From Staphylococcus lutrae (GTDB lineage Bacteria; Bacillota; Bacilli; Staphylococcales; Staphylococcaceae): a stretch of DNA of 64,000 nt. The notes below the pieces were generated by a model. That model made no database searches. It worked only from the letters and a program-made list of their open reading frames with translations, and was not told the origin of the DNA. The stretch lies in contig NZ_CP020773.1 of the NCBI RefSeq assembly GCF_002101335.1, forward strand, positions 496,001 to 560,000, given 5' to 3'. Position numbers and translations under genes: made by a program. How positions within the stretch are numbered: the first letter of the stretch is position 1; each line of letters opens with the position of its first letter. Of the stretch, positions 3,635-61,421 are shown one piece after another.

Positions 3635-3745
3635 CTCATTAATCCTCCACTATGTTTACAGCTCTATTCTTTTTATCTCTTCAAAAACTTAATCAGTCTA
3701 CCCATGACTATTAACTTATTTTATGATAACTAAACATTTTTTGTA

Positions 3746-3976
3746 TTAAAATAAGTATTTTATTTGTGTGGAAAATCGTAATAAATCAATAATAAAACGA
3801 CTCACACTTGTACCGATGAGTATTGCCAAAAATATCATGATGACTTGTACTTGTAATGGAAAACCTTTTTTAAAAAATTGGTCCAACCGGATTGCATTAA
3901 GTCCCCAGTATGCGGTACAAATACATATTACATGCATCACAATATTTGCAATCGCAAATTGTCCGATGTAATCCAT
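3746..3976 (-). CDS. DUF1146 family membrane protein (YwzB-like)
   Basis: A 76-residue protein with two predicted membrane helices (about residues 8-28 and 44-64) linked by a short basic segment (LDQFFKKGF). It fits the DUF1146/YwzB family that lies between the ATP synthase operon and murA in staphylococci and bacilli. The start is supported by GAAGGAG upstream of the ATG at 3976. No enzymatic motif is present and the function is unknown. Confidence 0.8.
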   Translation of the reverse strand: MDYIGQFAIANIVMHVICICTAYWGLNAIRLDQFFKKGFPLQVQVIMIFLAILIGTSVSRFIIDLLRFSTQIKYLF

Positions 3977-4347
3977 TTTATTGCTCCTTCACTTATCATC
4001 TCTCTATTAATTTTACATGATTTATAAGTTAAATCATACTATAAGTGACTTAAAATAATACAATTTTTGATTATATGTTTTTTCTAGGCCTATACCTTTA
4101 ACAGTCATCCACATGTATCCCATTATTATGATCATCAAACATGAACATATTGAAGAAAAGCCCGTTACGTTTAATCCCTTTCAGTCATTTTATAAGCTCA
4201 TAACAGTCCTTAAGAAAAACATGGGAAGAATGTGACGTATCTCGTACAAGTTATCGTTTAATGAGAAAATGCAAAATTCAATTCGAAGTTGTCATAATAA
4301 AAGCTCGGTCTGTCGTGTCGACAAACCGAGCTTTTAACTCACATATA
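3977..4347. other. Intergenic region, atpC to ywzB-like gene
   Basis: AT-rich, with no credible ORF. It must contain the promoter of the DUF1146 gene on the minus strand, and it ends with the atp operon terminator at 4299-4335. I see no further structure. Confidence 0.5.
4299..4335 (-). terminator. atp operon terminator
   Basis: A GC-rich stem (AAAGCTCGGT pairing with ACCGAGCTTT, continued by GTCG/CGAC) sits just after the atpC stop. A U-run follows in the minus-strand direction. Confidence 0.9.
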
Positions 4348-4752
4348 TTATTTAAATTTAGCAACTTCGATACGATTTTCTGCGCGCTTTAATGCACGTT
4401 CCGCACGTTTTAAATCCGTATCTGCTTTGTCACCTTCAAGATAAAATGTTGCACGTTGTTTTGCTGATTTAGCACGTTCCAAATCAATATCATCCGCTGA
4501 TTCAGCAGCTTGTGCAAGAATATTGACTTTTTCATGGCGAATCTCAGCAAACCCTTCTGTTACAGCTATATAATCCGATTTTCCATTTTTAGTCACTTTT
4601 ATATGACCAATTCTTAATGGTGTAACCGTCGGAATGTGACCGTACATCACACCCATCTCGCCTGCTGTCGTTTGTAAGACAACAATTTCAACATTGTCTT
4701 CTTTGTAAACAGAACCATTAGGAGTGACGATATCTAAGGTTAATGTGTTCAT
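4348..4752 (-). CDS. atpC: F1Fo ATP synthase subunit epsilon
   Basis: A 134-residue central-stalk subunit with an N-terminal beta-sandwich (start MNTLTLDIVTPNG) and a C-terminal helical hairpin (about 90-134). That hairpin can brake rotation in this family. The ATG follows GGAGG. Last gene of the atp operon, 22 bases after atpD and followed by the operon terminator. Confidence 0.97.
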   Translation of the reverse strand: MNTLTLDIVTPNGSVYKEDNVEIVVLQTTAGEMGVMYGHIPTVTPLRIGHIKVTKNGKSDYIAVTEGFAEIRHEKVNILAQAAESADDIDLERAKSAKQRATFYLEGDKADTDLKRAERALKRAENRIEVAKFK

Positions 4753-4774
4753 TATCCAGGCCTCCTAATTAGAA

Positions 4775-6199
<1,425 letters not shown>

Positions 6200-6211
6200 T
6201 TATAATAAAAA

Positions 6212-7081
6212 TTATTCTAACGCTGCTGAACCACCAACAATTTCAGTGATTTGTTGGGTAATGGCTGCTTGTCGCGCTCTGTTATATTGTAATGATAAAT
6301 CGTCAATCATTTCTGTTGCATTATCTGAGGCATTCTTCATCGCATTCATACGTGATGCGTGTTCACTCGCTTTTGCATCAAGAATTGTTCCATAAATCAA
6401 GCTTTCGATGTACTGAGGTAACAACACCTCTAATATCGCATCTTTATCCGGCTCAAATTCATATGATGACATGGCACCGTGACCTAAACTTGAATCCTCT
6501 GGAGATAATGGTAACAACTTTTTACTGCTCGGCTTGTTTTCGATTACACTCAAGTAATGGCTATAATAGATGTGTAATTCATCGATTTGTTCGTCGACGT
6601 ATAAATCGACAGCTCGTTTGCCAATCGCTTGAACGGCTTTGAACGAAGGCTGATCTGGAATGTCAGTTAATGTGTTTTCGAGCTTATAACCTCTATTCCG
6701 CAAAAAAGTCGCACCGATTTGTCCTAATACAATTAATTTATATTCTTCGGGACTGTTATGTCGTTGTTCAATGTCACGAATCATTTTCTTTAATACATTT
6801 GCACTATACGCACCGGCTAGTCCACGATCACTAGTAATGATCATATAACCTACACGTTTGACCTGACGTTCATTAAGCATTGGGTGTGTTGCCGTTTTAT
6901 TTGCACCTGCAATTGCTGTAATCGCATCTTTCATTTTCTCCATGTATGGGCGAAAAGTTAATGCATTTTTTTCGGCTTTGCGCAATTTAGAACTCGAAAC
7001 CATGTTCATCGCATTGGTAATCTGCTTTGTCTTCTTGGTCGATTTAATACGAGAATCAATTTCTTTTAATGAAGCCACCAT
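6212..7081 (-). CDS. atpG: F1Fo ATP synthase subunit gamma
   Basis: A 289-residue rotor-shaft subunit. Long N-terminal ([21 protein letters not shown]) and C-terminal ([12 protein letters not shown]) helices form the coiled coil that turns inside the alpha3beta3 ring. The signature [15 protein letters not shown] is present. The central Rossmann-like region has normal length, without the long insertion seen in photosynthetic organisms. Placed between atpA and atpD as usual. Confidence 0.98.
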
Positions 7082-35239: not shown

Positions 35240-35911
35240 TTAAAATGTAAGTTCGTTTGCCAACTTTTGAGCTGACACGATTGTGCCGACTACACCTGGC
35301 TTAATATCAATCGCAACATAACGATTGTCATCTCGCAATTCATCTAACCATTCCGAGAATACTTCACCTTCCACATCAATCAACTCAAAACTTTCAAAAT
35401 CTGCTTCAGCTACTTTTTTCGCACGTTGACTCAAGCTCCACACTGGCATGAAATACGATTGATCAAAATGGTCATTCTCGTCATAAACAAGCATAAACTG
35501 CTTTTCACCTTTTTGACTTAAACCGTACACCATATCTGTTTTGGCAACATCTTGTACGAATTCACGAATACGAATATTATCCAAATCCGTCATTAAGTCA
35601 TTAATGGCCTCAACGATTTTAATTTCGTGCCCTTCCACATGATCCGTCACGTTCACGAGTGCTTCATCCTCTTCGTCAAACATTTCATCTAATTCATAAG
35701 TAGCGAAGCGGTCGATATCCATCTCTTTAATTTTATCGTAAGCGATGTTTAGATTTTCTAGGTATGCTTTTGCTAATGATTCACGTGTCCAAAAACAGAA
35801 TAACAATTTGCCATTGTGTTGATGCTTAATCATCTTTTTATCTTTCACAGCAATAAAAAATTGTTCGTTTATTAATATATCTTTATAAAAACGTTCATTC
35901 TTATATGACAT
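35240..35911 (-). CDS. DUF2750 domain-containing protein
   Basis: A 223-residue soluble protein with two copies of a DUF2750-like unit: residues about 5-85 (EQFFIAVKDKKMIKHQHNGKLLFCFW) and about 110-220 (DMVYGLSQKGEKQFMLV). Both carry the pattern of a hydrophobic strand, a tryptophan and a short helix. An acidic linker (DEMFDEEDEAL) joins them. The ATG follows AAAGGAG. Function unknown; it sits next to coaW as in other staphylococci. Confidence 0.75.
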   Translation of the reverse strand: MSYKNERFYKDILINEQFFIAVKDKKMIKHQHNGKLLFCFWTRESLAKAYLENLNIAYDKIKEMDIDRFATYELDEMFDEEDEALVNVTDHVEGHEIKIVEAINDLMTDLDNIRIREFVQDVAKTDMVYGLSQKGEKQFMLVYDENDHFDQSYFMPVWSLSQRAKKVAEADFESFELIDVEGEVFSEWLDELRDDNRYVAIDIKPGVVGTIVSAQKLANELTF

Positions 35912-41835: not shown

Positions 41836-42216
41836 TTATAGAAAAAATGATTGCTCGTCATCCGTTGCTTGGGCCCAATCCGTCTGCCACATTTTGTCCC
41901 TATTATTAGCAAAAAGTTGATATCCTAAATTTCTAAGTGGTCGAGGGATAAGCCACAGTAATACGGCTAAAGCTTTATAACGATCTAACGCATAAATCAA
42001 TTTTACAATTGCTGTTGATTGAAAAGTGAGTTGATCTCCTTCCTGTAACACAACGCTATTATACGCCAACACTTCGGGATGTGATGCCCTTAAAGCATCC
42101 CCAGCCGCACTCTTTAACGGAACGAATACATAACGTCTAGATAAACCATGGCGAATTAACCAAATGGCATAATTATAACAATATACACAGCGATCGTCGT
42201 AATAAACGATTGGCAT
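41836..42216 (-). CDS. DCC-family thiol oxidoreductase-like protein (DUF393)
   Basis: A 126-residue protein of the DUF393/DCC family. The defining DxxC motif appears at the N-terminus (YYDDRCVYC, residues about 4-12), giving a CxxC-like pair. A hydrophobic helix (about 83-100, LAVLLWLIPRPL) follows. The ATG at 42216 follows GGGGTGAT; six upstream residues are rejected. Probable redox function is inferred from the motif; no substrate is known. Confidence 0.85.
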   Translation of the reverse strand: MPIVYYDDRCVYCYNYAIWLIRHGLSRRYVFVPLKSAAGDALRASHPEVLAYNSVVLQEGDQLTFQSTAIVKLIYALDRYKALAVLLWLIPRPLRNLGYQLFANNRDKMWQTDWAQATDDEQSFFL

Positions 42217-42390
42217 TGAATCACCCCATTCCATAGTTTCATTTTATAGGAAATGGCTAAAAAATTAAAAAGAAACCTTCGCAATCTAATGATTTAAACG
42301 CTAGAGTCAAACGTTGGTGTCAATCATCAATCATGCCAAAAACGGCAAAACAATATTAGTTTGCCCACCACCTGATTTGACAAGGAACGC

Positions 42391-42443: not shown

Positions 42444-43808
42444 TTATTGTTTGACTTGTACAATACGGGCATATTTAAGAAATTGTGCAGGATATTGCGC
42501 TTTCACTTCTTGTGGTGTCAAATACGTCACACCAACGATATGCCAATTGGGATTAAAACGGTAAAAAGAGTCTTTCTCTTTACTCCACTTCACCATACTC
42601 CCATTTTTATGATAGCGTGGTAAAGTCATTTCATAGCCTTCCAAGACATTAATAAATGTTTGGAAAATAGCGACATCGATACGCTCAAACTGATCAATCA
42701 CTAAAAACTGACGATCTGTTTTAGGCATCAACTCTGTAATAAATCCTTCTCTATAATATAATGCACCGGCTTCATTTGGTAAATATCTGCCATAGAGCAT
42801 CTCTTCTGTAAAGTCTGGATGACCCACAGTCATCACAGGCGTTGCGTTCGCTTTTTCAACAAGTGCTTGTGCCGAATTTAATCCGCTCTCATGCGCCTCT
42901 GCTAAGAGCAAGATAAATGGCTTGAGTTCATCATCCTGTCCCCCGCTTTCAGTGGACGGAACTGCTTCGAATTGGCCTTTTAAACCATCATTTTCGCTCA
43001 TTTCCATAATCGCATTAAATTGTGTAGGCGTTAAGCTCGCAATGGCTTGTTTTGCGTTTTCTTGCAAAAAGTACAAATTTTTAAGTTTAGGATGCTTATT
43101 TAAAGTCATCAAGCTGACAGGATGTATATCCTCTATGTAACGTAGCTCAATCGCAGTGCTATTCGTTCTCCCCGCTTCAGGTGGTCGCTGATGAATATGA
43201 TGTGCAACTTCTGCGCGTCCCACAACGGATTGATTGGAAAAGCGATTGTAGACAATCATCTGATCTCCGACTTCCAGTTGTGTGTAATGATGATAGCCAT
43301 TGCGTTTAATACCGTTTAATGTATGCGTATAAATCGTATACGTTTCACCACATTCAAAGTTTTCCGTTTCGGCAATAAAAAAGTATCGTGGAATGGATAC
43401 TTCTCCACTTCCCAAGCCTTTAATCAATTCAAACTCATCATAGGAAATCTTGTTGAAAAGCGTTTCTTTCATGTTATTCATTCGAAACTCTAACGCTTCA
43501 CTTCTCTTAAGATAGTCCGTCGTCAACGCCTTAAACATTTCATTGAATTTAAATTCTACATGTATTTTATTTTGTGCACCTGTTTGTACACGAGTGATTT
43601 CTCCCCACCCGAGTAAACCTGCATCCGTTTGCACTTGGTAGAAGATGACCTTATCACCGATTTTGGCTTGTTTAAAAGCACGAAAACCTTGTGTTGGATT
43701 AAACTGTGCACCTGATTCAAACACGGTTGTTTGCCCAACAAGTGGTTCATTGTGATTCCATCTATTATAACCGCAATTCAGCCAAAAATAATTCGTTTCT
43801 GCTGTCAT
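42444..43808 (-). CDS. Double EVE-domain protein with degenerate McrB-like AAA region
   Basis: A 454-residue protein. Residues about 5-130 and 140-270 are two related EVE/PUA-like units: NYFWLNCG..GDKVIFYQ..GLLGWGEI and RYFFIAET..GDQMIVYN..SVVGRAEV, each ending in a similar helical stretch. Residues about 296-450 follow the order of a McrB/AAA_5 ATPase: FTEEMLYGRYLP (332-343), a Walker B-like FLVIDQFER (368-376), and the sensor-like strand NWHIVGVTY (421-429). The P-loop that should lie near 302-312 is AEAHESGLNSA, with no GKT/GKS, and the Walker B glutamate is Gln373. ATP hydrolysis is therefore unlikely. No mcrC, nuclease or methylase gene adjoins it. A modified-base or RNA reader is inferred. 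Confidence 0.75.
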   Translation of the reverse strand: MTAETNYFWLNCGYNRWNHNEPLVGQTTVFESGAQFNPTQGFRAFKQAKIGDKVIFYQVQTDAGLLGWGEITRVQTGAQNKIHVEFKFNEMFKALTTDYLKRSEALEFRMNNMKETLFNKISYDEFELIKGLGSGEVSIPRYFFIAETENFECGETYTIYTHTLNGIKRNGYHHYTQLEVGDQMIVYNRFSNQSVVGRAEVAHHIHQRPPEAGRTNSTAIELRYIEDIHPVSLMTLNKHPKLKNLYFLQENAKQAIASLTPTQFNAIMEMSENDGLKGQFEAVPSTESGGQDDELKPFILLLAEAHESGLNSAQALVEKANATPVMTVGHPDFTEEMLYGRYLPNEAGALYYREGFITELMPKTDRQFLVIDQFERIDVAIFQTFINVLEGYEMTLPRYHKNGSMVKWSKEKDSFYRFNPNWHIVGVTYLTPQEVKAQYPAQFLKYARIVQVKQ

Positions 43809-44129: not shown

Positions 44130-45068
44130 TTAAACGTAGCTCACCATGAGCGTAAATTCCCCTTCAAACACATTATCTAAATCTTCTGCTGTTAAAATTA
44201 AATGATTTCCTTTTTGAATATCATAAATCTCGCCATCTGTAATCAATTGGCCTTGTCCTTCAAGTACAGACACAAGCACAAACTCTCGTGGTTTCATATA
44301 ATTCAATGTCCCGTTGACTTCCCATTTCGCTACTGTGAAGAAATGGTTTTGAACAAAAGTCGTACATTTATGGTTTTCAATGACTTCTGTTTGCGGAATA
44401 ACATTCGGACTTTCTTCGCCTATACTAATGACATCTTTACCCTTTTCAATGTGTAATTCACGTTTCTTTCCATCTTGATCCACGCGGTCATAGTCATAAA
44501 TACGATAAGTCGTATCCGATGATTGTTGTGTTTCCAAAATCATTATCCCTTCACCAATTCCATGCACAGTCCCAGCTGGAACGAAAAAGAAATCCCCTTT
44601 TTGTACAGGAACACGTTTAAATAAATGTTCAAACTCATGGTCATCTAACATTTGATTTAATACTTCACGTGATTCCGCATATGTTCCATAAATAATCTCT
44701 GCACCTGGTTTCGCTTCAAGTATATACCAACATTCCGTTTTACCATATTCACCATTTTCATGTTCATATGCATATGTATCATCCGGATGAACTTGGACAG
44801 AAAGCTTTTCAGTTGCATCTAAAATCTTAGTTAATAATGGGAATTTCTGTGTTGGAAACTCCCCGAACAATTTAGGTTGGTTTTCCCATACTTCATCCAA
44901 TGTTTGCCCTTTATACGGCCCATTTAAAATGCGGTTGGCGCCGTGTGGATGCGCTGAAATCCCCCATACCTCTCCAGTATGGTCACTTGGTAAATCATAA
45001 CCGAATTGTGCGAGATTTGTTCCACCCCAAATTCTTTCTTGAAATACAGGTTCAAGTATTAATGGCAT
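44130..45068 (-). CDS. manA: Mannose-6-phosphate isomerase, class I
   Basis: A 312-residue cupin-type zinc isomerase linking fructose-6-P and mannose-6-P. Metal-site residues are seen in SVQVHPDD, KTECWYIL and FFVPAGTVHGIG. It is the short Gram-positive form. No PTS mannose genes adjoin it. The ATG at 45068 follows GAGGTGATC. Confidence 0.96.
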   Translation of the reverse strand: MPLILEPVFQERIWGGTNLAQFGYDLPSDHTGEVWGISAHPHGANRILNGPYKGQTLDEVWENQPKLFGEFPTQKFPLLTKILDATEKLSVQVHPDDTYAYEHENGEYGKTECWYILEAKPGAEIIYGTYAESREVLNQMLDDHEFEHLFKRVPVQKGDFFFVPAGTVHGIGEGIMILETQQSSDTTYRIYDYDRVDQDGKKRELHIEKGKDVISIGEESPNVIPQTEVIENHKCTTFVQNHFFTVAKWEVNGTLNYMKPREFVLVSVLEGQGQLITDGEIYDIQKGNHLILTAEDLDNVFEGEFTLMVSYV

Positions 45069-46283: not shown

Positions 46284-46466
46284 TTTCTCCACCACAACCC
46301 TTCTACTTCATTTTAACAAAAATAAAGGTGTAACTCTTTAATCAATTTCAATCTATATCTATTGTTTTGTTATAATTGAACTAAAAATAACATTTCATGA
46401 CCCTATTATTTTGCAAATGCCCAAGATTTTGATAATGTGGTGTATATGCGAAAGGAGTGCTCTCAA

Positions 46467-47372
46467 TTGTTTACATTTACCAAACTATTCTGGCACAATA
46501 CACAAAATCAGAAACCTAAATTATTCTCAATTTCTATCATTGGTTTTGTCATTTTATTACTGCTAACAATATTATCCATGTCACCTTTTAATGTATTGCT
46601 TCAACTATGGCAATTTTCTGTCTTATCAGGAAACCAAAACTTTACTTATTTAATTCTTATGATGGTTGCCTCTATTATTTTAACCATTTGCTTATTTACA
46701 ATGTTGATTTTCCCATTTTTTGTTGGCGTGATTCAGGCAATCCATCACAGTATCGTTGATGGTTACACCTTGCAATGGAAAAATTTAGTTGGTGCGTTTA
46801 AGAAAGGCGTATGGGGTAAAACCGTTCTCACAGGTGTATTTGTACTATTATTCATTGTATTCACACTGATTGTCTATGCTTTAGTGAATGCCGGCGTAAC
46901 ATTTTTGATACAAAAACTGTTCAATCTTATTCGTTCAACGAATAACGGACAAAGCTTTTTACAATTGATCATTAGTATTCTCATCGTCATCGCTTCATTT
47001 GTGTCAAGTATCGTAGTTTGGCTTGCAGGGATTTATATCACTCATGTCGCTGTTTCTATCAATGAAGATGCGACGCGCTCACTTAAAATCCATTTTAAAG
47101 AGGCATGGAGAGGAATGAGAAATGGACATCAAACATTTTTCCGTTTCTTATTAGGATTACTGTTAATCAATTTACTGTTTATCATCATTAATGAACCGGT
47201 CAACTTTTTAATTCAACAAAACCTAGCACATATCTCACAAAATATCGCGAATACTTTATCAATCGTGTTGAGTATTTTATTACTATTGATTCGTTACTTC
47301 ATTTACTTCATCCTCATCGGGAGTATCGTACAATACTTTGTACGTCGAGGCAGTCAATCTCCTACCTTATAA
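46467..47372 (+). CDS. Polytopic membrane protein of unknown function
   Basis: A 301-residue protein with about six strongly hydrophobic segments (near 20-40, 65-95, 115-140, 165-190, 225-245 and 265-290), rich in Ile/Leu. I recognise no family with confidence. A TTG start at 46467 is chosen because AAAGGAG lies exactly 9 bases upstream; the ATG at 46446 precedes that site and lacks its own. Divergent from the GntR regulator, which may control it. No transporter or enzyme motif seen. Confidence 0.65.
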   Translation: MFTFTKLFWHNTQNQKPKLFSISIIGFVILLLLTILSMSPFNVLLQLWQFSVLSGNQNFTYLILMMVASIILTICLFTMLIFPFFVGVIQAIHHSIVDGYTLQWKNLVGAFKKGVWGKTVLTGVFVLLFIVFTLIVYALVNAGVTFLIQKLFNLIRSTNNGQSFLQLIISILIVIASFVSSIVVWLAGIYITHVAVSINEDATRSLKIHFKEAWRGMRNGHQTFFRFLLGLLLINLLFIIINEPVNFLIQQNLAHISQNIANTLSIVLSILLLLIRYFIYFILIGSIVQYFVRRGSQSPTL

Positions 47373-48885: not shown

Positions 48886-50688
48886 TTATTCCACTGTCAC
48901 GGATTTCGCAAGATTACGTGGTTTATCCACATCTAATCCACGATGCAATGCGGCATAATAAGAAATCAATTGCAATGTAACTACAGAGACAAGCGGTGTC
49001 AGTAATTCATGAACATTCGGTATCACATACGTGTCTCCGTCTTTCTCAAGCCCTTCCATTGAGATAATACAAGGTGCTGCACCACGCGCAACAACTTCTT
49101 GAACATTACCTCTAATTGAAAGATTAACATTTTCCTGAGTCGCAAGGGCAATGACTGGTGTGCCTTCTTCAATCAAAGCAATCGTCCCATGTTTTAATTC
49201 ACCACCCGCGAAACCTTCCGCTTGAATGTATGAAATCTCTTTCAGTTTCAAAGCACCTTCTAAGCTGACATTGTAGTCAACCGTACGACCGATAAAGAAT
49301 GCATTACGTGTCGTCTCTAAAAATTCTGTCGCAATGTCTTCCATTTTCGGTGCATCATCAACAATCGTTTCAATTACTGCAGTGACTTTACCCAATTCAC
49401 GAAGCAAATCAATATCCGCTTGACGGCCACGTGATGACGCTACCACTTGAGATAAAATAGATAGAACGGCAATTTGTGCAGTATATGCTTTTGTTGAAGC
49501 GACAGCAATTTCTGGACCTGCATGTAACAACAATGTATGATCCGCTTCACGAGACAGGGTCGATCCCGCAACATTCGTAATGGTCAATGATTTGTATCCT
49601 AGTTTTGTCGTTTCCACTAATACCGCACGACTATCCGCTGTTTCCCCTGATTGAGAGATATAAATAAACAATGGATTTTCAGAAAGCAACGGTATATTGT
49701 ACACAAATTCCGATGAGACATGTACTTCTGTCGGGATACCGGCCCACTTTTCAATAAATGTTTTACCTACTAGGCCAGCGTGGTAACTTGTCCCCGCTGC
49801 AATGATATAAATTCGATCCGCCGCTTGAATATCTTTAATGATTTCTGAATCAATTTTCAATTCACCTTTATCGTCTTGATACTCTTGAATGATACGTCGC
49901 ATGACTGCAGGCTGTTCGTAAATTTCTTTTAACATGTAATGATCGTAAATTCCTTTTTCAGCGTCCGAAGCATCGATTTCTGCAATATAGCTCTTTCTCT
50001 CTATCTTTTCGCCATTTAAGTTTTTAATGATCACTTGATCACGTTTAACTAAAACGATTTCCTGATCTTTTAATTCTTTATATTCGCTTGTAATTTGAAT
50101 CATTGCTAAAGCATCTGACGCAATCACATTGAAATCATCGCCAATCCCAACGAGTAACGGCGATTTATTTTTAGCAACGTAAATCGTATCATCATCTTCG
50201 CGATCCAATAAACCTAATGCATATGATCCATGTAATAATGAAACCACTTTTGTAAATGCTTCTTCTGTTGATAAACCTGTTTCTGAAAAATGCTCAATTA
50301 ACTGTACAATGACTTCGGTATCCGTGTCAGAAACAAACGTGACATTTGACAGATATGTTGCTTTTAACTCCTGATAGTTTTCAATCACACCATTGTGCAC
50401 TAATGTATAGCGCTCACTTGTTGACTGATGTGGGTGTGAATTTTCAAAACTCGGTACGCCGTGCGTCGCCCAACGCGTATGACCGATACCTGTTTGTCCA
50501 TCAATCTCATGTGCCGCCGCTTCACGCAAATCTGCAATACGTCCTTTGGCTTTTGTGACTGTCACTTCATTCCCTTCTCGCGTTGCAATTCCGGCTGAAT
50601 CATAACCACGATACTCTAGCTTTTCTAACCCTTTTAACAGTAATTCTTTTGCATTTTGACGTCCAATATAACCAACTATTCCACACAT
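48886..50688 (-). CDS. glmS: Glutamine:fructose-6-phosphate aminotransferase
   Basis: A 600-residue enzyme making glucosamine-6-phosphate for wall synthesis. The N-terminal class II glutaminase has its nucleophile at Cys2 (MCGIVGYIG). Two SIS domains follow ([25 protein letters not shown]). The ATG at 50688 follows GGAGG; the longer frame would bury the catalytic cysteine and is wrong. A glmS ribozyme in the leader should cleave the mRNA when the product accumulates. Confidence 0.98.
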
Positions 50689-50819
50689 AAATAATTTCCT
50701 CCACGACGAAATAACGGTGCAATTGTTCAATTTTTCACATATTGTGACATGCTGTTTTCATGCCCCAATAATGAAAATTGCATTAGCATCGTTCTCTAAT
50801 TATTATTTTGCTATTGGCG

Positions 50820-51015
50820 ATCTTACTAACTTTGTCCAACAAGTTACCCTGTTGATTTGATTAATAAGCTAACGAATGAGCCACATCCGGGATAGCATCC
50901 GCCGATCATATTCGATCACTATCCTCCTCGTCCACAACTACATTCTATACATCTGCTACACACTCTGCTTTAGTATGTAGGTCATCAATCTATAGCGTGT
51001 ACTTGCGCTGGCGCT
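50820..51015 (-). promoter_or_regulatory. glmS ribozyme
   Basis: On the minus strand: AGCGCC at the cleavage site (51015-51010, cut before G at 51014), then the core GACGAGGAGG, AGTGATCGAA, ATCGGCGGATGC, CCCGG and the downstream pseudoknot hairpin with CAGGGTAACTTGTTGGA. Order and conserved bases match the glucosamine-6-phosphate-activated ribozyme of Gram-positive bacteria. The 3' boundary is approximate. Confidence 0.95.
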
Positions 51016-51060
51016 TTGTAATGCTGACTACCTCTACCCTCCTTCATCAGAATATAACCT

Positions 51061-51090
51061 ATTGTACAATGAGTGAAACTTTCTTTGCAA
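51061..51090 (-). promoter_or_regulatory. glmS promoter
   Basis: TTGCAA (51085-51090), an 18-base spacer and TACAAT (51061-51066) on the minus strand, about 45 bases upstream of the ribozyme cleavage site. Confidence 0.65.
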
Positions 51091-51551
51091 ATAAAAGTAC
51101 AATATTTTCGAAAATTATTGTTGTGTGTTTGAGCCTCATATCCTGTACTTTTTAGTTAATTATATATTTTTGATATTCAATGCTGTTCAATTATAATCTT
51201 TAATCATTATTTGCGCACAATGGTCAATGCAATTCCCTCATCTATCCTTTAAAATCGCTTTCATTTTAAGTTAAACATCAGTTTGTCCTCGTTAACACCA
51301 TTTGTGATTTTCCTCTCTCAAAAGGCCTTTCTAAAAAGTGGCCTCGAGACATTATTTGTCATTTTACACTTAACTACATGTCGTATCTTGAATACACCAC
51401 GAAACCGCCTCATTCCTTTTTTACTATTGTCGCATAATTATGAACTGTCATTTTCTAAAGCGTTTCTTCATCATGAGCCTGTTTCTTCTATATTTATATC
51501 ACTAAATGTATTTTGTCATTTTCAACGTGACAAGTTGGTATTTTCTATTTA
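51091..51551. other. Divergent control region, glmS and mtlA
   Basis: No credible gene. The region must hold MtlR and possibly CcpA sites for the mannitol operon. A weak cre-like AAAGCGTTTC occurs at 51457-51466. I cannot define an MtlR operator by eye. Confidence 0.4.
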
Positions 51552-51580
51552 TTGTAAACGACTAAATAACGCTTTAAGAT
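51552..51580 (+). promoter_or_regulatory. mtl operon promoter
   Basis: TTGTAA (51552-51557), a 17-base spacer and TAAGAT (51575-51580), about 40 bases before the mtlA start. Confidence 0.75.
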
Positions 51581-51620
51581 GTACACACAAACCAATTTTT
51601 TATTAAGGGGTGTCAAATAG

Positions 51621-53195
51621 ATGGCAAATCAAGAAAAAACAGAACAACAGCCGATGAAAGAACAGATTCAACGTCGCGTTCAAGCATTCGGTTCATTTTT
51701 AAGTAGTATGATCATGCCGAATATCGGTGCGTTCATTGCTTGGGGTTTGATTACTGCGTTATTCATTCCTGATGGCTGGCTTCCAAATGAGGAACTTGCC
51801 AAAATGGTCGACCCGATGATCAAGTTTTTAATTCCACTACTCATCGCCTTTAGCGGAGGGCGTCTTGTCCATGATTTACGTGGTGGGATTGTCGGTGCGA
51901 CTGCAACAATGGGTATCATCGCTGCATTCCCAGATACACCTATGTTAATCGGTGCCATGATTATGGGTCCATTAGTCGGTTGGCTGATGAAAAAAGTGGA
52001 TCAGTTTTTACAACCACGTACACCAAACGGCTTAGAAATGCTATTCAATAACTTCTCAGCAGGTTTCCTTGCATTCTTCATGACGATTTTCGGTTTTAAA
52101 ATTTTAGGCCCTATTGTTGAAGGCTTAATGAAAATTCTCGGTGCAGGTGTGGATTTCCTAGTTTCACATCACTTGCTTCCACTTGTAAGTATCATTATTG
52201 AACCTGCAAAAGTTGTCTTTTTAAACAATGCGATTAACCATGGTGTCCTTACACCGCTCGCATCAGAACAAGTGAGCCAAGCAGGTCGTTCGATTCTTTA
52301 CACATTAGAGTCTAACCCTGGTCCTGGTTTAGGTATTTTACTTGCTTATATGGTCTTTGGTAAAGGGACTGAAAAAGCAACATCATACGGGGCAGCATTC
52401 ATCCACTTTATCGGTGGTATTCATGAAATTTACTTCCCTTACGTTCTTGCACGTCCATTGTTAATCTTTGCAGCAATGGCGGGTGGTATGACAGGTGTTG
52501 CAACATTTAGCTTATTCAACTTTGGTTTAACAGGCCCAGCGTCACCAGGTTCAATCCTTGCATACTTTGCAGTCACACCTAAAGGCAGTTACTGGGTGAT
52601 GTTACTCAGCATTTTCTTATCAACATTAGTGACATTCATCGTCGCATCTGCCATTTTGAAATTTTCTAGAGGTTCTAAAACAAGTCTTGCGGATGCAACA
52701 GCGAAAATGGAAGCGACAAAAGGTAAAAAATCTCGAGTTCGCGACACATTCATTCAAGAAGATGAAACAACAACTGACCATACAACTGCAACTGCTGAAG
52801 CGACATCTACAACAACTGATAACGCAACACTTGCAGAAGAAGATCCAGAAGTATTGTTAGACAAATATGACACTGAAAATGTTGAAGCACATGACTATAG
52901 CCATATCGACCACATTATTTTCGCTTGTGACGCAGGTATGGGCTCAAGTGCGATGGGTGCAAGTCTGTTGCGTAAAAAATTTCAAAAAGCTGGTATCGAC
53001 AATGTAGAAGTGACAAATACAGCGATCAACCAACTTCCAGGTGAGTCACAACTTGTCATTACTCAAAAAACATTGACAGACCGTGCGATTAAACAAGTAC
53101 CTAACGCGATTCATCTTTCTGTAGATAATTTCTTAAACTCACCGCGCTATGAAGAGTTAATTAAAAACATTAAAGAAAAAGAGAATCAAGAATAA
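51621..53195 (+). CDS. mtlA: Mannitol PTS enzyme IICB
   Basis: A 524-residue permease. The membrane IIC domain (about 1-350) contains GGIHEIYFPYVL, the substrate-binding motif. A Thr-rich linker (about 385-410, DHTTATAEATSTTTDN) leads to the IIB domain (about 425-524) with the phospho-cysteine Cys436 in IIFACDAGMGSSAMG. It takes up mannitol as mannitol-1-phosphate. The IIA domain is separate (mtlF). The linker is longer and more Thr-rich than usual. Confidence 0.97.
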   Translation: MANQEKTEQQPMKEQIQRRVQAFGSFLSSMIMPNIGAFIAWGLITALFIPDGWLPNEELAKMVDPMIKFLIPLLIAFSGGRLVHDLRGGIVGATATMGIIAAFPDTPMLIGAMIMGPLVGWLMKKVDQFLQPRTPNGLEMLFNNFSAGFLAFFMTIFGFKILGPIVEGLMKILGAGVDFLVSHHLLPLVSIIIEPAKVVFLNNAINHGVLTPLASEQVSQAGRSILYTLESNPGPGLGILLAYMVFGKGTEKATSYGAAFIHFIGGIHEIYFPYVLARPLLIFAAMAGGMTGVATFSLFNFGLTGPASPGSILAYFAVTPKGSYWVMLLSIFLSTLVTFIVASAILKFSRGSKTSLADATAKMEATKGKKSRVRDTFIQEDETTTDHTTATAEATSTTTDNATLAEEDPEVLLDKYDTENVEAHDYSHIDHIIFACDAGMGSSAMGASLLRKKFQKAGIDNVEVTNTAINQLPGESQLVITQKTLTDRAIKQVPNAIHLSVDNFLNSPRYEELIKNIKEKENQE

Positions 53196-53226
53196 GAAAT
53201 CATGTAATGGGGATGTGATCTGCTGC

Positions 53227-55257
53227 ATGTATATCAGACGTCGGGAGCGTGACATTTTAGAAATACTGCTGAAAAATCAAGGGTTACCTATTTCTAGATA
53301 TGATATCGCTCAACAATTAGGGGTATCTTCGCGAACGGTGCATCGAGAACTGAACAATCTCGATGCAACCCTCGCACCTTTTGAAATCACCATTCAACGT
53401 CCTAAAAATCAAGGACTCCTCTTGGTCGGTGCACATGATGATATTGCCCGATTACAACAAGAACTCGGTCAAGACACTGTCATTGATTTAAGTACAGAAG
53501 AACAAAAAGTCATTATTTTATATGCCTTAATTCAGTCAAATGAACCCGTGAAACAAATCGGTTTAGCTTCGGAAATTGGCGCATCTCTGCAACAACTGAG
53601 CAAAGTGTTGGATAAACTCGAACAAGATTTGAATCAGTTCAAAATTGAGCTCATTCGAAAACGCGGTGTCGGAATTTCAATTCTCGGTAGCGAAATGCAT
53701 AAACGTGAACTGTTAAGCCAACTGATGATGGAACGTTTAGATAGTACGAGTGTGTATTCCGTCATTGAAAATCATTTTGTCTTTCAATCGTTAAATCATA
53801 ACCGACTGCCTATGGTCGACATGAAAGAGATTTTCCAAGTTGAACGGTTGCTTATGGATGATTTGGATCACTTGCCGTATTCATTGACAGAATCAAGTTA
53901 TTTGGCACTCATTGTTCACATTGTCTTAAGTATTGAACGTATGCGCCATGAACAATATGTCTCTATTAACGATGACACTATGGCAGAAGTTCAAGCGACT
54001 GATGAATATCACATTGCTTGTCAAATTTCAGATCGCCTCGGACAACATTACGGCATTACGTTCAAGCCGGCAGAAGTTGCCTTTATTACGATTCATTTAC
54101 GCGGGTCAAAGCGAAAAAATGATAAAGAGGATCAACAATTATCGCAAAATGTACCACAAGTTGCTGCGTTAATTGACATGGTCGCGATGGAAACTGGGCT
54201 GAAATTTAACAATACCCATGAATTAAAAGAAGGCTTGTTGTTACATCTCACGCCTGCTTTAAATCGGATACACGCTAAAATCGAAACTTACAATCCGATG
54301 ACGACACGCATTCAAAGCGCTTATCCGCGATTATTTGAAGCCGTACGACATGCGGTCACTGATTTATGGCCACACCTTCATTTTCCAGACCATGAAATTG
54401 CCTTTTTAGTCTTACATTTTGGTGGCGCTTTACAAAAACGCCAACATGCATCATCTGTACTTGTCGTATGTAGCAGTGGTGTCGGAACAAGTCGTATTTT
54501 GGCCAATCGCTTAAAAGAAACGTTTCCTATGATTGACTGTACGACGCAAATGTCTGTAAGTGATTTAAAATCGCATGACCTCACACAGTATGACGCGATT
54601 ATTTCTACCGTGGAGTTGGATTTAGAACAGCCGTATTTAACGGTAAATCCCCTACTTCCTGAACATGAAATTGCGAAAACTTCTTCATTTTTGCACCAAC
54701 AACTGCCGCAAATGTCAGGAGTGCATCCGCGTTTAAACGATACGGATACAAAGCCTACTGTAACGGGTACGACTGATGCGACAAAAGTGGACCAAAAAAT
54801 TGATGCGATGCGCGAAAGTTTACAACTGTTAGATGCATTAGAAGTATTCCAAACGGATCTGACGGATTGGTCGTATGATATCGCGCAACATCTTTATCAC
54901 AAAAAGATTACGCATGATTTAACTGCTGTACAACAACTTTTGAAAGAACGTCACGATAAGCAATCTTTTGTATTATCACCATTTCGAGTCGCGATTCCAC
55001 ATTTTGCCAGTGCACACGTCGAAACACCTTACATCGGCGTATGGCACTTAGCGACACCTTACGACTTTGGTGAAGGGCACACTGTCGACACGTTATTCTG
55101 TGTTTTTTTACCGGAAGATACACAACTTCAACGTCTCGTCAGTGAAATCTATGGTCAGTTGTCACTCACTTTAGATGAACATGAGGACGCACTGACCGAC
55201 GCAACGCACATTGAACAATGGATTAAGCAAAGTATTATCACATTGAATCAACTATAA
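53227..55257 (+). CDS. mtlR: Mannitol operon transcriptional activator MtlR
   Basis: A 676-residue PTS-controlled activator. Domains in order: DNA-binding HTH (about 1-60, [21 protein letters not shown]), a second helical region, two PRD domains (about 185-390), a IIB-like domain ([19 protein letters not shown], phospho-cysteine) and a MtlA-type IIA-like domain (PFRVAIPHF with its histidine). Phosphorylation on these domains tunes it to mannitol and PTS state. The start is uncertain: ATG at 53227 lies 14 bases past GGGG; a GTG at 53215 is the alternative. Confidence 0.93.
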
Positions 55258-55273
55258 CAAGGAGCGATTGATT

Positions 55274-55708
55274 ATGGAAAACTTATTAAGAGACGAAAAT
55301 ATTTTATTAAACCAATCTATTTCTACACAAGAAGAAGCAATTGAAAAAGCAGGACAACTACTTGTAGATAGTGGTGTCGTTAAAGCAGGCTACGTACAAG
55401 CGATGAAAGACCGCGAACAAATTGTATCCACATTTATGGGTAACGCTTTAGCCATTCCACACGGCACAGATGAAGCGAAAAATGAAGTAATCGCATCAGG
55501 TTTATCATTATTACAAATTCCTGAAGGCTTAGACTGGAATGGTGAAGAAGTGAAAGTTGTGATTGGTATTGCTGGTAAAGATGGCGAACATTTAGACTTG
55601 TTATCACAAATTGCGATTACATTCAGTGAAGAAGAAAATGTAGACAAAGTCGTCAATGCGGCATCTCCACAAGCAATTCGTCAAGTGTTCGAGGAGGCGG
55701 ATGCATAA
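55274..55708 (+). CDS. mtlF: Mannitol PTS enzyme IIA
   Basis: A 144-residue IIA protein passing phosphate from HPr to MtlA. The active histidine is His63 in [12 protein letters not shown]. The ATG at 55274 ([12 protein letters not shown]) follows AAGGAGCG; a TTG two codons upstream is not favoured. Its stop overlaps the mtlD start (TAATG), which implies coupling. Confidence 0.97.
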
Positions 55709-56814
55709 TGAAAGCACTTCATTTTGGAGCAGGTAATATCGGTCGTGGTTTTATCGGCTTTATCCTCGCAGACAACCAGTTTGACGTGACATTTGCAGAT
55801 GTTAATACAGATATCGTCAATGCCCTTAAAGCAGAACAAGCTTATGAAGTGACACTTGCTGATGAGGCGCAAACAAAGACGACCATTCACAACGTCAATG
55901 CCATTCATTCTGCTGAAGAACCAGAAGCACTTAAAAACGCAATTTTAGAAGCAGATTTGATTACAACTGCAGTCGGTGTGAACATTTTACCTATCATCGC
56001 AAAATCATTAGCACCGATTTTAAAAACTCGTACCACACCTGTAAACATCGTCGCTTGTGAAAATGCGATTAATGCGACAGATGCATTGAAAGCAGCAATT
56101 TTAGATGAAGTGGAGACTTTAGATGACAACATTCATTTCTCTAACGCTGCCGTAGACCGTATCGTCCCTATTCAACACAATGAAAATATTTTAGATGTGA
56201 CAGTAGAACCATTTTACGAGTGGGTGATCGAACAAGCGACTTGGCACGGTCAACAATTGGACGGAGTGAAATATGTAGATGCACTCACACCTTATATCGA
56301 ACGCAAATTGCTGACAGTGAATACAGGTCATGCTTATCTTGCTTATGCAGGTCATTATTTCGGTCATCAAACGATTTTAGAAGCGGTTCATGATGAAAAG
56401 ATTGCAAAAGAATTAGAACGTACATTAACAGAAACAAGTCAATATATTACTAACACATTTGACTTTTCTGCAGAAGAACAAGCCGTATATCGTGAAAAAA
56501 TCATCGGCAGATACCACAATCAATATTTGTCAGATGACATTCAACGTGTCGGACGCGGTGTCTTAAGAAAATTAGGACCACAAGACCGTATTATGAAACC
56601 ATTGAAAGCATTATATGAATCCAACGAACCGCATGATGCGTTAACACAACTGGCCGCTTATGCACTCGTGTACAAAGATGCACAAGATCCAGAAGCTGTT
56701 CAAAAAGAAGAACGTATTCAAGCAGTCGGGGTTGAAACGTTTTTACAAGAACATGCTGAACTAGATGACAAATTGGCACATGCCATTGCGAACAAATATC
56801 AACAATTATCATAG
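55708..56814 (+). CDS. mtlD: Mannitol-1-phosphate 5-dehydrogenase
   Basis: A 368-residue NAD-dependent enzyme turning mannitol-1-phosphate into fructose-6-phosphate. The nucleotide-binding [11 protein letters not shown] is at the N-terminus, and the family signature [17 protein letters not shown] with its catalytic lysine lies in the middle. It ends the mtlA-R-F-D operon. In S. aureus this enzyme is linked to redox and osmotic tolerance. Confidence 0.97.
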
Positions 56815-56818
56815 CATT

Positions 56819-56847
56819 TAAAAAGCTGGGTGTACATCCCAACTTTT
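56819..56847 (+). terminator. mtl operon terminator
   Basis: AAAAG..TGGG with CCCA..CTTTTT directly after the mtlD stop. Confidence 0.85.
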
Positions 56848-56939
56848 TATTACTTTTATAAAAATGAGTGATAAACTCTATGACCTAACTTATTACGCTT
56901 TATGTCTTTTTAAATACACTAAATAAGGAGGCAATACAA

Positions 56940-56975
56940 TTGAGTTTCTACCAACAAATGAATGGTATTTCTTAA
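56940..56975 (+). other. Eleven-codon TTG-started mini-ORF with strong SD
   Basis: AAGGAGG (56925-56931) is followed after 8 bases by TTG and ten further codons (LSFYQQMNGIS) to a TAA that lies at the base of the following hairpin. The spacing is ideal, but the peptide is very short and no other coding sequence follows on this strand. It may be the left-over start of a deleted gene or a leader peptide. Confidence 0.35.
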
Positions 56976-57037
56976 AAATAATGAACCCCCTCTCAACAAG
57001 GTATAGATGATACTTGTTAGAGGGGGTTCATTATTTT
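56974..57037. terminator. glmM terminator, bidirectional
   Basis: A stem of about 17 bp (AATAATGAACCCCCTCT and complement), continued by ACAAG/TTGT and TAT/ATA, with A/T runs on both sides. It touches the glmM stop codon. Confidence 0.95.
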
Positions 57038-58392
57038 TAAGTGTCTAAGCCCATTTTTTCTTCTACTACTTTTGCAATACGTTCTGCAAAGCCATGTGCA
57101 TCTTCGTCTGTTTTAGCTTCTACCATGACACGTACGAGTGGTTCTGTACCTGATGGGCGCACTAAAATACGACCTTCGTCATTCATTTCCGCTTCAACTT
57201 CCGCAATCACAGCTTTAACTTCTTGATTCTCTTCCACACCATATTTATCAGATACGCGGATGTTAATCAGAGATTGAGGATACTTCTTCATTTGAGCTGC
57301 CAATTCACTTAACTTCTTACCAGAACGTTTAACAACAGCTGCCAATTGAACACCTGTCAATAGACCATCACCCGTCGTATTGTAATCCATTAAAACGATG
57401 TGCCCCGATTGCTCACCACCTAAATTGTAATGACCTCGACGCATTTCTTCTACGACATAACGGTCTCCCACTTTGGTTTGATTGGATTGAATCCCTTCTG
57501 CTTCTAATGCTTTGTAGAAACCTAAGTTACTCATCACTGTGGACACAATCATATTATCATTCAATTCTTGATTTTTCGCCATCTCTTGTCCGATAACAAA
57601 CATAATTTGGTCACCATCGACAATTTGACCTTTTTCATCGACTGCGATTAATCGGTCCCCATCACCATCAAATGCTAAGCCAAAATCACATTCATTATCG
57701 ACAACTTTTTGTGCTAACGCTTGTGGATGTGTAGATCCTGTTTCATCATTAATATTGTAACCATCTGGATTACAGCCAATTGTCACTGTATCTGCTTCAA
57801 GGTCACCGAATAAAAATGGTGCTAGTGCTGCTGTTGAACCGTGTGCACCGTCCAACGCAATTTTTAACCCTTCTAAATTCACTTCTATCGTCGATTTCAA
57901 ATAACTTAAATATTTTTGAGCGCCTTCAAAATAGTCGGAAATATGGACAAGATCCGTACCAGTTGGGCGCGGTAAATCTGGATGATCTTGATCGAGTAAT
58001 TGTTCAATTTCGTTTTCTTGTTCGTCTGATAGTTTGAAACCATCTGAACCAAAAAACTTAATACCATTGTCCGCTACCGGATTATGTGAAGCTGAAATCA
58101 TCACACCTAATTCTGCATCCATTTCTCTCGTTAAATAAGCAACACCCGGAGTAGAAATCACGCCTAAACGCATGACTTCAGCGCCTATTGACACGAGTCC
58201 AGCAATCAATGCATTCTCTAACATTTCTCCTGACACGCGTGTATCTTTTCCGACGAGTACACGAGGATGTTTTTTGTGTTCATTATGTGCTAAAACATAA
58301 CCACCATAACGTCCTAACTTAAACGCTAATTCAGGTGTGAGTTCTTGGTTAGCAACGCCTCTTACACCGTCTGTACCAAAATATTTACCCAT
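57037..58392 (-). CDS. glmM: Phosphoglucosamine mutase
   Basis: A 451-residue alpha-D-phosphohexomutase converting glucosamine-6-P to glucosamine-1-P on the way to UDP-GlcNAc. The phospho-serine is Ser102 in ISASHNP, the metal loop DGDGDR and the sugar-binding GEQSGH are present, and the phosphate-binding [10 protein letters not shown] is near the C-terminus. Third gene of the cdaA-cdaR-glmM operon; in several Firmicutes GlmM binds and inhibits CdaA. Confidence 0.98.
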
Positions 58393-58420
58393 AAATCATA
58401 TCTCCTTTTATGTTCATTCA

Positions 58421-59353
58421 TTATTCAACTTTTATCTTTGCTTTTAAAGCTTCTGGTTTGGCATCTGTCACATTTTTCGGCAAATCTAATTTGACTTCTT
58501 TTTCTGTATCAGATGAAATACCGTTGACATCCACTTCACCAGTAATTTCAGATATATTGGCTAAATCTTGACGGTTACCTATAATTTCAATCGTATCAGA
58601 ATCGACATCAATATCAGAAACCTTTAAGCCATTTGCAGGCGTCCCTTTTAAAGACACTTCCAGTTTCACCTTTTTGGAATACGGTTCAACTTCTGTCGTT
58701 AATGTCACCGTCGAAGGTACGACTTGGACATCGAGCTTATTCATATTTTTATCGAATACAAATACATTTGCTTCTCCTGTTGTTTTATCCGAAATATTAT
58801 TTTCGTTACGGTAGCTGGCTTTCACAAATGCAATCCGATCCAATTGGGCCTTACCTCCCGTAATTTTAACCGTTTCTGGTGACACAGTTGTTTCTTTAAT
58901 TTTGTAGTTTGGATGGATTGAATATGGACTGACATTCGGCTCAACATTATAAGTTCTCGTTTCCTTTTTTTCAACAGATAAGGTCACTTCTTTCGGATAA
59001 ACACGATAATTGATGTCTTTGTCTAATCCACGGACTTGAAAACCGACTGTATATTCACCTGGCTGTGTATTTGAAGCATCTAATACGACTTTAAAGTCCT
59101 CAATTTTTTGTGCTCGTAATACTTTGGATTGCGGACCAGTGAGCTCGACATCTACAGTATCAGGTGCACCCGAAATATAAAGGCTATTGTCATTGTTAAT
59201 CACTTCAACAGCGACATTTTTAATCGTTTTATTACCATCATTCGATACATTGTCCGTACTAAATGCATCTCCCAATACATGATTGACTGACAAGAAGAGT
59301 AATAATGCTAAGATTAAGGCTGTAAAACGTAAACCCCATTTTGATTCCAACAT
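58421..59353 (-). CDS. cdaR: CdaA regulatory protein CdaR (YbbR domains)
   Basis: A 310-residue protein: one N-terminal membrane helix (about 8-28, RFTALILALLLFLSVNHVL), then extracellular YbbR repeats (about 50-310; recurring KxVxLxVxxxG and PxxVxxTG patterns). It regulates the cyclase CdaA. The ATG directly abuts the cdaA stop. Confidence 0.95.
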   Translation of the reverse strand: MLESKWGLRFTALILALLLFLSVNHVLGDAFSTDNVSNDGNKTIKNVAVEVINNDNSLYISGAPDTVDVELTGPQSKVLRAQKIEDFKVVLDASNTQPGEYTVGFQVRGLDKDINYRVYPKEVTLSVEKKETRTYNVEPNVSPYSIHPNYKIKETTVSPETVKITGGKAQLDRIAFVKASYRNENNISDKTTGEANVFVFDKNMNKLDVQVVPSTVTLTTEVEPYSKKVKLEVSLKGTPANGLKVSDIDVDSDTIEIIGNRQDLANISEITGEVDVNGISSDTEKEVKLDLPKNVTDAKPEALKAKIKVE

Positions 59354-60160
59354 TTACTTCATACCTTTCTTTCCAAAGTGTGCACCGAACCAATGCTCAG
59401 ATAACAGTTCTTCAAAGACTTCTGGTGAAATATCTTTTCTGAGTTTCCCATCAAATGTCACTGAAATAGACCCTGTCTCCTCTGATACAACCACTGTAAA
59501 AGCATCAGAAACTTCAGAAATACCAACCGCTGCACGATGACGTGTTCCAAGGCTTTTAGCAATTTTGGGGCTGTCTGACAGCGGTAAATAACTGGCAGCA
59601 GTCGCAATTTTGTCCCCTTGTATAATCATCGCACCATCATGTAAAGGCGTATTTGGAATAAAAACATTCGTTAAAAGCTCTTGTGAGATATCAGAATGCA
59701 TCGGTATACCTGTCTCTATGTAATCCTGTAGCCCTGTTTCTTTTTCAAAAACGATGAGCGCCCCAATTCGTCGCTTTGCCATATACTGTACAGCCTTTGA
59801 TACAGCATCCACGAGCTTTGGTACTTCAACAGTAGATGTCGCCGAATAACGTTTGAACAAACTCCCTCTTCCAAGTTGCTCTAACGCACGTCTGATTTCT
59901 GGTTGAAAGATGACAATAATGGCTAAAAATCCCCATTGCAAGACCAAATCAAACAATCTTGAAGTTGTCGTAAGTTGTAAATATTCACTTACCGCTTTCC
60001 CCACAAGTATGAATAATATCCCTTTTAATAATTGAATTGCTTTCGTCCCTTTAAAGACTGTAATCAGTAAATAAATGACATACCATACAATTAATAAATC
60101 TAGAATACCTGTGATAACCTCAAGCGTACTTAAATTTTCAAAGAGGTGTGTGATTTGCAT
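59354..60160 (-). CDS. cdaA: Diadenylate cyclase CdaA (DacA)
   Basis: A 268-residue membrane enzyme making c-di-AMP from two ATP. Three N-terminal helices (about 10-95) anchor a DAC domain with the catalytic DGA (175-177) and RHR (207-209) motifs. c-di-AMP controls potassium/osmolyte transport and wall stability in staphylococci. The ATG follows GGAGGAG. First gene of the operon with cdaR and glmM. Confidence 0.97.
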   Translation of the reverse strand: MQITHLFENLSTLEVITGILDLLIVWYVIYLLITVFKGTKAIQLLKGILFILVGKAVSEYLQLTTTSRLFDLVLQWGFLAIIVIFQPEIRRALEQLGRGSLFKRYSATSTVEVPKLVDAVSKAVQYMAKRRIGALIVFEKETGLQDYIETGIPMHSDISQELLTNVFIPNTPLHDGAMIIQGDKIATAASYLPLSDSPKIAKSLGTRHRAAVGISEVSDAFTVVVSEETGSISVTFDGKLRKDISPEVFEELLSEHWFGAHFGKKGMK

Positions 60161-60436
60161 AGTATCTCCTCCGGTAATCTATTCCCATGCCCTATATTAT
60201 ACCAATGTTAATCTCAGTTTGTCATATAGGAGTATGATGAAATCGCATTTAAATTTTCATATTTACGTATTGCTTAAAGGGACCTCTGTTTTACTGTTGA
60301 TCATTATGTATACTTTTCCCTATTTCTCTTAATATTCTCCATTTCAAAGTAAGGATAGTAGTGGCGACCGTCTCTGCTATAGATGTCTACATGTCTCGAC
60401 AGACTTGTACAAAAGTCCGATGAAGCACAGACAACA
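60161..60436. other. Intergenic region upstream of cdaA
   Basis: Part of a 355-base gap ending with the rocF hairpin at 60437-60474. It should contain the cdaA promoter; I see no ORF worth calling. Confidence 0.4.
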
Positions 60437-60474
60437 TCAAACGAGGTGAATACGTGCACGTTCACCTCGTTTGA
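60437..60474 (-). terminator. Perfect 14-bp hairpin after rocF
   Basis: TCAAACGAGGTGAA and its exact complement flank a 10-base loop that is itself self-complementary (CGTGCACG). It lies 40 bases past the rocF stop. The U-run is poor (TTTGATGTTGT), so it may act as a stability hairpin as well as a terminator. Confidence 0.65.
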
Positions 60475-60515
60475 TCTAGATAAGACTAGCGCTTATCCGA
60501 TTGAATATGACGCGT

Positions 60516-61421
60516 TTACAATAACGTTTCTCCAAAGAATGAGCCGAGTAATGCGACCGCTTGCTCTGCAGTCCGATTTTCTCTATCTAATAACGGATTG
60601 ACTTCCACAATATCCATTGACGTAATCAATCCTGAAGCATTTAACAATTCTAACGCGTAGTGGCTTTCCCGATAAGTTAACCCTCCCGAAACTTTAGTGC
60701 CTGTACCTGGTGTTTCATTTGGATCTAATGCATCAACATCTAATGATAAATGAACGCCGTCTGTTTTATCTTTCAAATACGCAATACTTTCTTCAATTAT
60801 AGGACGTATACCTCGTTCATCAATGTCGGCCATTGTATACGTTCTAATTTGATGTTGTTTGATATAGGCCCGTTCCCCATAATCCAAATCTCGCATACCG
60901 ATAAGGACAATATTTTCAGGTTTCACTTTCGGCATAAAACCACCGAGTTGAACTAATTGTGAATCCCCTTCACCAGCCAAAATGCGAAGTGGCATGCCAT
61001 GGACATTTCCAGAAGGTGATTCTTCAGGGACATTTAAGTCACCATGGGCATCATACCAAATAACGCCTAATTGCTGATAATGTTCTGCTACTCCGGAAAT
61101 AGAACCAATCGCTAACGAATGATCTCCGCCAAGAATAACTGGAAAATGGTTTTGACGAATACTTTCCGATACTTTATCTTTTAACGCTTTAGAAAATGTA
61201 AGAATTTCCTCATAGTTTTGTAATCCCTCTTGTTGAGAGGTGAATTTCTCAATATCTACTCGAGGTGCTTCAACATTTCCTGAATCAATGACTTGATGCC
61301 CTATACGTTTTAATCTTGGTAATGCACCTGCATAACGAATTGCATCTGGACCTAAATCAACCCCTAATTTCTTTTGTCCAAAAGTTGTTGGTGCACCGAT
61401 AAGTTCTATTGTCTTATCCAT
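60516..61421 (-). CDS. rocF: Arginase
   Basis: A 301-residue binuclear manganese enzyme splitting arginine into ornithine and urea. Metal ligands are seen in [18 protein letters not shown] and SLDVDALDP. In staphylococci it feeds the urea cycle remnant and urease and supports acid resistance. The start follows GGGGCGAGG. It is monocistronic between its own promoter (61501-61529) and hairpin. Confidence 0.97.

Follow-up and report, generated by a model that had tools for sequence, protein, structure and literature searches.

The gene at positions 42444..43808 (−) of the window, the 64,000-nucleotide stretch of Staphylococcus lutrae DNA analysed here, encodes a protein of 454 amino acids (open reading frame and translation). 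It is confirmed to consist of two EVE domains followed by a decayed McrB-like AAA+ domain. Judged by its sequence, it is an orthologue of PcdA (SAUSA300_2094), an already described division-plane protein, and as such is already known; on this basis it very probably has the division-plane role of PcdA, which we transfer from S. aureus. The PcdA study by Ramos-Leon and coworkers is said to have a journal version in Nat Microbiol (2024; doi 10.1038/s41564-024-01821-8). A 2023 preprint describes PcdA as belonging to the McrB family and carrying two EVE domains (Ramos-Leon et al., bioRxiv, PMC10602043, cited throughout from excerpts). The domain make-up, orthology, distribution and selection were computed here, as was the presence of FtsZ and DivIVA family members in the window genome; the division phenotype, the binding of FtsZ and DivIVA and the weak NTPase activity come from the published work, where S. 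aureus is the one species whose protein was assayed for function.

Domains and decayed motifs of the window protein

Both N-terminal domains have the EVE fold when predicted structures are compared with the PDB: EVE domain 1 (about residues 5–140; 43389..43796, −) includes R16, E31, Q60, Y57 and K114, and EVE domain 2 (about residues 141–272; 42993..43388, −) includes Y187 and K253. The PF01878 (EVE) profile scores 45.3 bits against the whole protein for a cut-off of 23, and the two tandem EVE units of the initial annotation are thereby upheld. A structure search of the PDB with the whole model gave matches over residues 140–272 and 290–454 only, and EVE domain 1 was therefore folded and searched separately. 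The structure search also showed that the EVE domains resemble THYN1 bound to 5mC DNA (PDB entry 5j3e) and YTH domains. The best match in a direct sequence search of the PDB was an EVE protein (E = 0.034); rows for DNA polymerase gamma (E of about 0.3) were taken as chance, and the sole NCBIfam match, to a galactonate dehydratase model, was discarded as far below its cut-off. When the genome itself was scanned for Pfam EVE domains, the window gene reached just 13.9 bits, compared with 45.3 bits for the whole protein, and because of this limit of the scan the absence of a second EVE gene is weakly supported.

A variable linker (about residues 273–296; 42921..42992, −), with pLDDT below 50 at residues 274–294, leads to the decayed McrB-like AAA+ core (about residues 297–454; 42447..42920, −). 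The predicted structure of residues 290–454 is indeed an AAA+ core, with a fold shared with McrB (for example PDB entries 6ut3 and 6ut6). The place of the lost Walker A motif is taken by AEAHESGLNSA (residues 303–313; 42870..42902, −), in which N311 occupies the position of K313 in S. aureus numbering. In the decayed Walker B motif LVIDQ (residues 369–373; 42690..42704, −), D372 is retained and the position of the catalytic glutamate is Q373 (DE to DQ). The translation and the predicted-structure matches thus agree with the McrB-like order of elements, devoid of a P-loop and with Gln373 for the Walker B Glu, that had been read from the DNA. The AAA+ part stops at the last core strand, too early for a C-terminal helical lid to fit within the frame.

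A functional McrB of a type IV restriction system was rejected, as the protein has no P-loop and a search of the window genome for the McrC family (PF10117) at E ≤ 1 came back empty, though a divergent mcrC could escape it; within that limit, the gene stands without mcrC, as initially proposed. A defence system was also rejected, the only PADLOC match having 14.7 bits, an E value of 0.0031 and a length of 38 residues. In another locus, L148, positions 3722–6791 (−) hold an intact McrB (GPPGTGKS) and then an overlapping gene of 425 amino acids without a Pfam match at 1e-5, which by its position is probably a McrC-like nuclease. Counts from a promoter and terminator scan around pcdA in the window were at chance level.

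Orthology with PcdA and distribution

The window gene is tied to PcdA by a primer match, by numbered residues and by conserved gene order, with S. schweitzeri (locus L010) as the stand-in for S. aureus in the sequence comparisons. Reverse-complemented, part of the published R1 primer for pcdA agrees at 20/20 bases with the start-codon region of the orthologue in S. schweitzeri, where chance alone would give 0.01 matches with three or fewer mismatches. The 27-base downstream primer stretch in the excerpts of PMC10602043, which, judging by the primer design, apparently starts at the stop codon, has no match in L010 with three or fewer mismatches. L010 carries all 11 residues numbered in these excerpts (R16, E31, Y57, Q60, K114, Y187, K253, K313, D374, T430 and R450) under the same numbers, and 10 of the 11 are unchanged at the aligned window positions, the exception being K313, which is Asn. 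This Asn, together with an identity of 70% between the window protein and its S. schweitzeri orthologue, counts against the transfer of function.

An orthologue of pcdA is present in 108/108 sampled genomes of the family, in one copy each, with an open frame and no internal stops (where two matches appear for a genome, both sit within one open frame). In the order sample, 71 of 120 genomes match, all from the family; the other 49 have no pcdA match, and the 20 of these that are listed belong to other families. The class sample yielded 25 matches among 299 genomes, namely 24 genomes of the family and G260, in which only the AAA part is matched, so that no full-length match lies outside the family among these 299 genomes. 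G260 was considered as an intact ancestor and rejected: this sole class-level match from outside the family is an ordinary McrB with GPPGTGKS, and it was used as a yardstick.

The gene lies between manA (mannose-6-phosphate isomerase; 44130..45068, −; TIGR00218, 214.6 bits) on its upstream side and a DCC1-like thiol-disulfide oxidoreductase gene (41836..42234, −; PF04134, 64.4 bits) on its downstream side. The order manA, pcdA, DCC1-like gene, deoD is shared among the 31 named loci, some of them shortened by contig ends: manA is upstream in 27, the DCC1-like gene downstream in 30, and deoD is present in 27. Going by the named loci, we treat group g1 as Staphylococcus and g4 as Mammaliicoccus; from the list in the excerpts of PMC10602043, we infer that g2, g3 and g5 are Macrococcus-type. 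At the pcdA loci of g2, g3 and g5, the three more distant genera, a search at E 1e-8 recovered no neighbour from the window (14/14 loci, in stretches of 6–10 kb from 14 of the 16 genomes). The core-genome position claimed for the gene is supported.

Elsewhere in the window, positions 35240–35911 (−) encode a DUF2750 protein in which the match spans just residues 116–221 of 223. A membrane-type protein encoded at 46437–47372 (+) has no family above the curated cut-off, and its relatives in the named loci, where there are any, share between 68% and 27% identity with it, less than is seen for its neighbours. According to Pfam, the stretch 48886–61421 holds glmS-like, phosphoglucomutase/glmM-like and YbbR genes, a PTS transporter with a PRD regulator, a mannitol dehydrogenase and a member of the arginase family.

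Selection and residue variation among the orthologues

Selection was measured on the window gene and 20 close relatives. With 110 of the 210 full-length pairs saturated and set aside, the median dN/dS of the whole protein is 0.042 (100 pairs); by domain, it is 0.027 for EVE1 (107 pairs), 0.038 for EVE2 (91 pairs), 0.052 for the AAA part (137 pairs) and 0.295 for the linker (129 pairs). Invariant columns amount to 31/136 in EVE1, 14/132 in EVE2 and 6/157 in the AAA part, and between g1 and g2 or g3 the identity is 46–50% for EVE1 compared with 19–20% for the AAA part. R16, Y57 and Q60 are invariant in 108/108 orthologues, and the E31 position is Glu or Asp; since EVE1 is the most conserved part overall, this invariance is not specific to the FtsZ face. 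In loci L047–L060 (g2, g3 and g5) the linker is poorly conserved and often longer, with open frames of up to 523 amino acids.

One may wonder whether the gene is a decaying McrB relic heading for loss, given that the P-loop and the Walker B Glu are gone, that the frame stops where the lid would begin and that the AAA part diverges so quickly between genera. This has next to no chance of being correct: the frame is open in every one of the 108 genomes, the AAA part has the low dN/dS given above among close relatives, and a deletion phenotype is published for S. aureus (PMC10602043). For Staphylococcus, that phenotype, taken with the purifying selection, refutes a relic.

A P-loop (GxxxxGK[ST]) was looked for among the orthologues, close ones included, and found in 0/108, which rules out a sequence error hiding it. 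At position 313, the 92 orthologues of g1 and g4 have Lys in 75 cases and Asn (as in the window), Glu, Thr, Gln, Ser or Ala in 17, with seven state changes on their tree, counted without comparison to shuffled labels; in g2, g3 and g5, Lys is found in 2/16, counts that are uncertain because the Walker A alignment with g1 is gapped. This variation argues against lysine 313, taken as the Walker A remnant in PMC10602043, being a working P-loop residue. This does not contradict the effect reported for K313 to Ala in S. aureus, which is moderate (cells 21% larger) and keeps self-interaction intact (PMC10602043). The D374 position (Walker B Asp) is Asp in 92/92 orthologues of g1 and g4 and Glu in 14/16 of g2, g3 and g5. 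The T430 position is Cys in 8/8 orthologues of g4 and Thr in the remaining 100, and the R450 position is Lys in 16/16 of g2, g3 and g5. At the level of sequence, the contribution of this comparison is detail on how far the AAA+ motor has decayed across orthologues. It also supplies, in 108 orthologues, natural variants testing the need for weak nucleotide chemistry.

A tentative extension, which we consider possible though rather doubtful, is that the AAA+ domain of PcdA is losing its handling of nucleotides, EVE1 being the conserved business end, and that in some species PcdA may be a nucleotide-independent scaffold from a membrane landmark to FtsZ. The species meant are the lineages without Lys at position 313 and the genera with a Walker B Glu (AAA part about 20% identical to g1 in g2 and g3, the two measured). 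If true, the ATP switch would be a feature of some lineages only. The D374A defects in S. aureus, where self-interaction is abolished and placement nearly abolished (PMC10602043), stand against it.

The EVE clefts of PcdA hold Y57 and K114 in EVE1, and Y187 and K253 (PMC10602043). The mutants Y57A, K114A, Y187A and K253A enlarge S. aureus cells as the deletion does (PMC10602043), Y57 is kept throughout the orthologues, and the EVE folds are real, down to their likeness to the THYN1–5mC DNA complex and to YTH domains. All of this would suit a protein that reads modified bases of DNA or RNA on its own and serves phage sensing or the regulation of restriction, with the EVE clefts binding the modified base and the decayed AAA domain relaying the signal. 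We hold such a reader to be very improbable, since the remaining cleft residues drift among the 108 orthologues (K253 to Asn in 16, Y187 to Leu or Phe in 14, K114 to Arg, Thr or Ser in 19), PADLOC returned only the short match described above, and PcdA is correctly placed in cells without a nucleoid (PMC10602043). Moreover, one copy in each of the 108 genomes and a gene order common within Staphylococcus are the behaviour of a housekeeping gene, not of a patchy defence gene. The sensor, RNA-modification reader or inhibitor of anti-restriction put forward in the initial annotation likewise find little in their favour beyond the EVE fold.

Probable division-plane role and comparison with known systems

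We retain the division-plane role. In S. aureus, PcdA has FtsZ and DivIVA as binding partners and makes successive division planes orthogonal, and its deletion widens the spread of division angles (a mean of 69.9 degrees compared with 82.1; PMC10602043). According to the same excerpts, PcdA-sGFP often precedes FtsZ at the division site, PcdA binds FtsZ polymers and, with ATP present, unpolymerised FtsZ too, its redeployment needs DivIVA, and its predicted FtsZ face is located on EVE1 (R16, E31 and Q60). It hydrolyses ATP and GTP weakly (kcat of about 0.9 per min; PMC10602043). The same model is repeated in the excerpts of two 2025 reviews. The initial annotation was therefore right in its reading of the domains, of the core position and, as far as the search reached, of the missing mcrC; its view that no role was described, its proposed functions and its label of catalytically dead gave way to the published work on PcdA.

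In the window genome, the tubulin family (FtsZ) is matched once and the DivIVA family twice. From orthology, we infer the same use of PcdA in the window's own species. PcdA would gather at the future division site via DivIVA, hold itself together via its decayed McrB-like AAA+ domain and bring FtsZ to the site via EVE domain 1, and the next septum would then form roughly at right angles to the previous one. In this reading, a restriction-system McrB has been taken over for cell division, a rare case, already in print, of a defence motor turned division protein.

PcdA of S. aureus and the window protein share the EVE–EVE–McrB architecture, the lost Walker A, a Walker B with the Asp alone, the missing lid and the absence of an mcrC found, and both are limited to Staphylococcus and its near relatives. 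They differ in N311, which stands for the Walker A remnant K313; the position of Gln373 is Asn in the S. schweitzeri orthologue. The McrB of McrBC type IV restriction (6ut3, 6ut6 and the intact McrB of L148) has an AAA+ core with an order of elements and a fold like those of the window protein, which, unlike it, has neither P-loop, Walker B Glu nor lid, and for which no mcrC partner gene was found. Finally, single-domain EVE proteins (PDB entries 2eve, 1zce and 2gbs; THYN1) have the fold of both N-terminal domains, whereas in the window protein two tandem EVE domains are joined to an AAA domain, with the predicted FtsZ face on EVE1 (PMC10602043).
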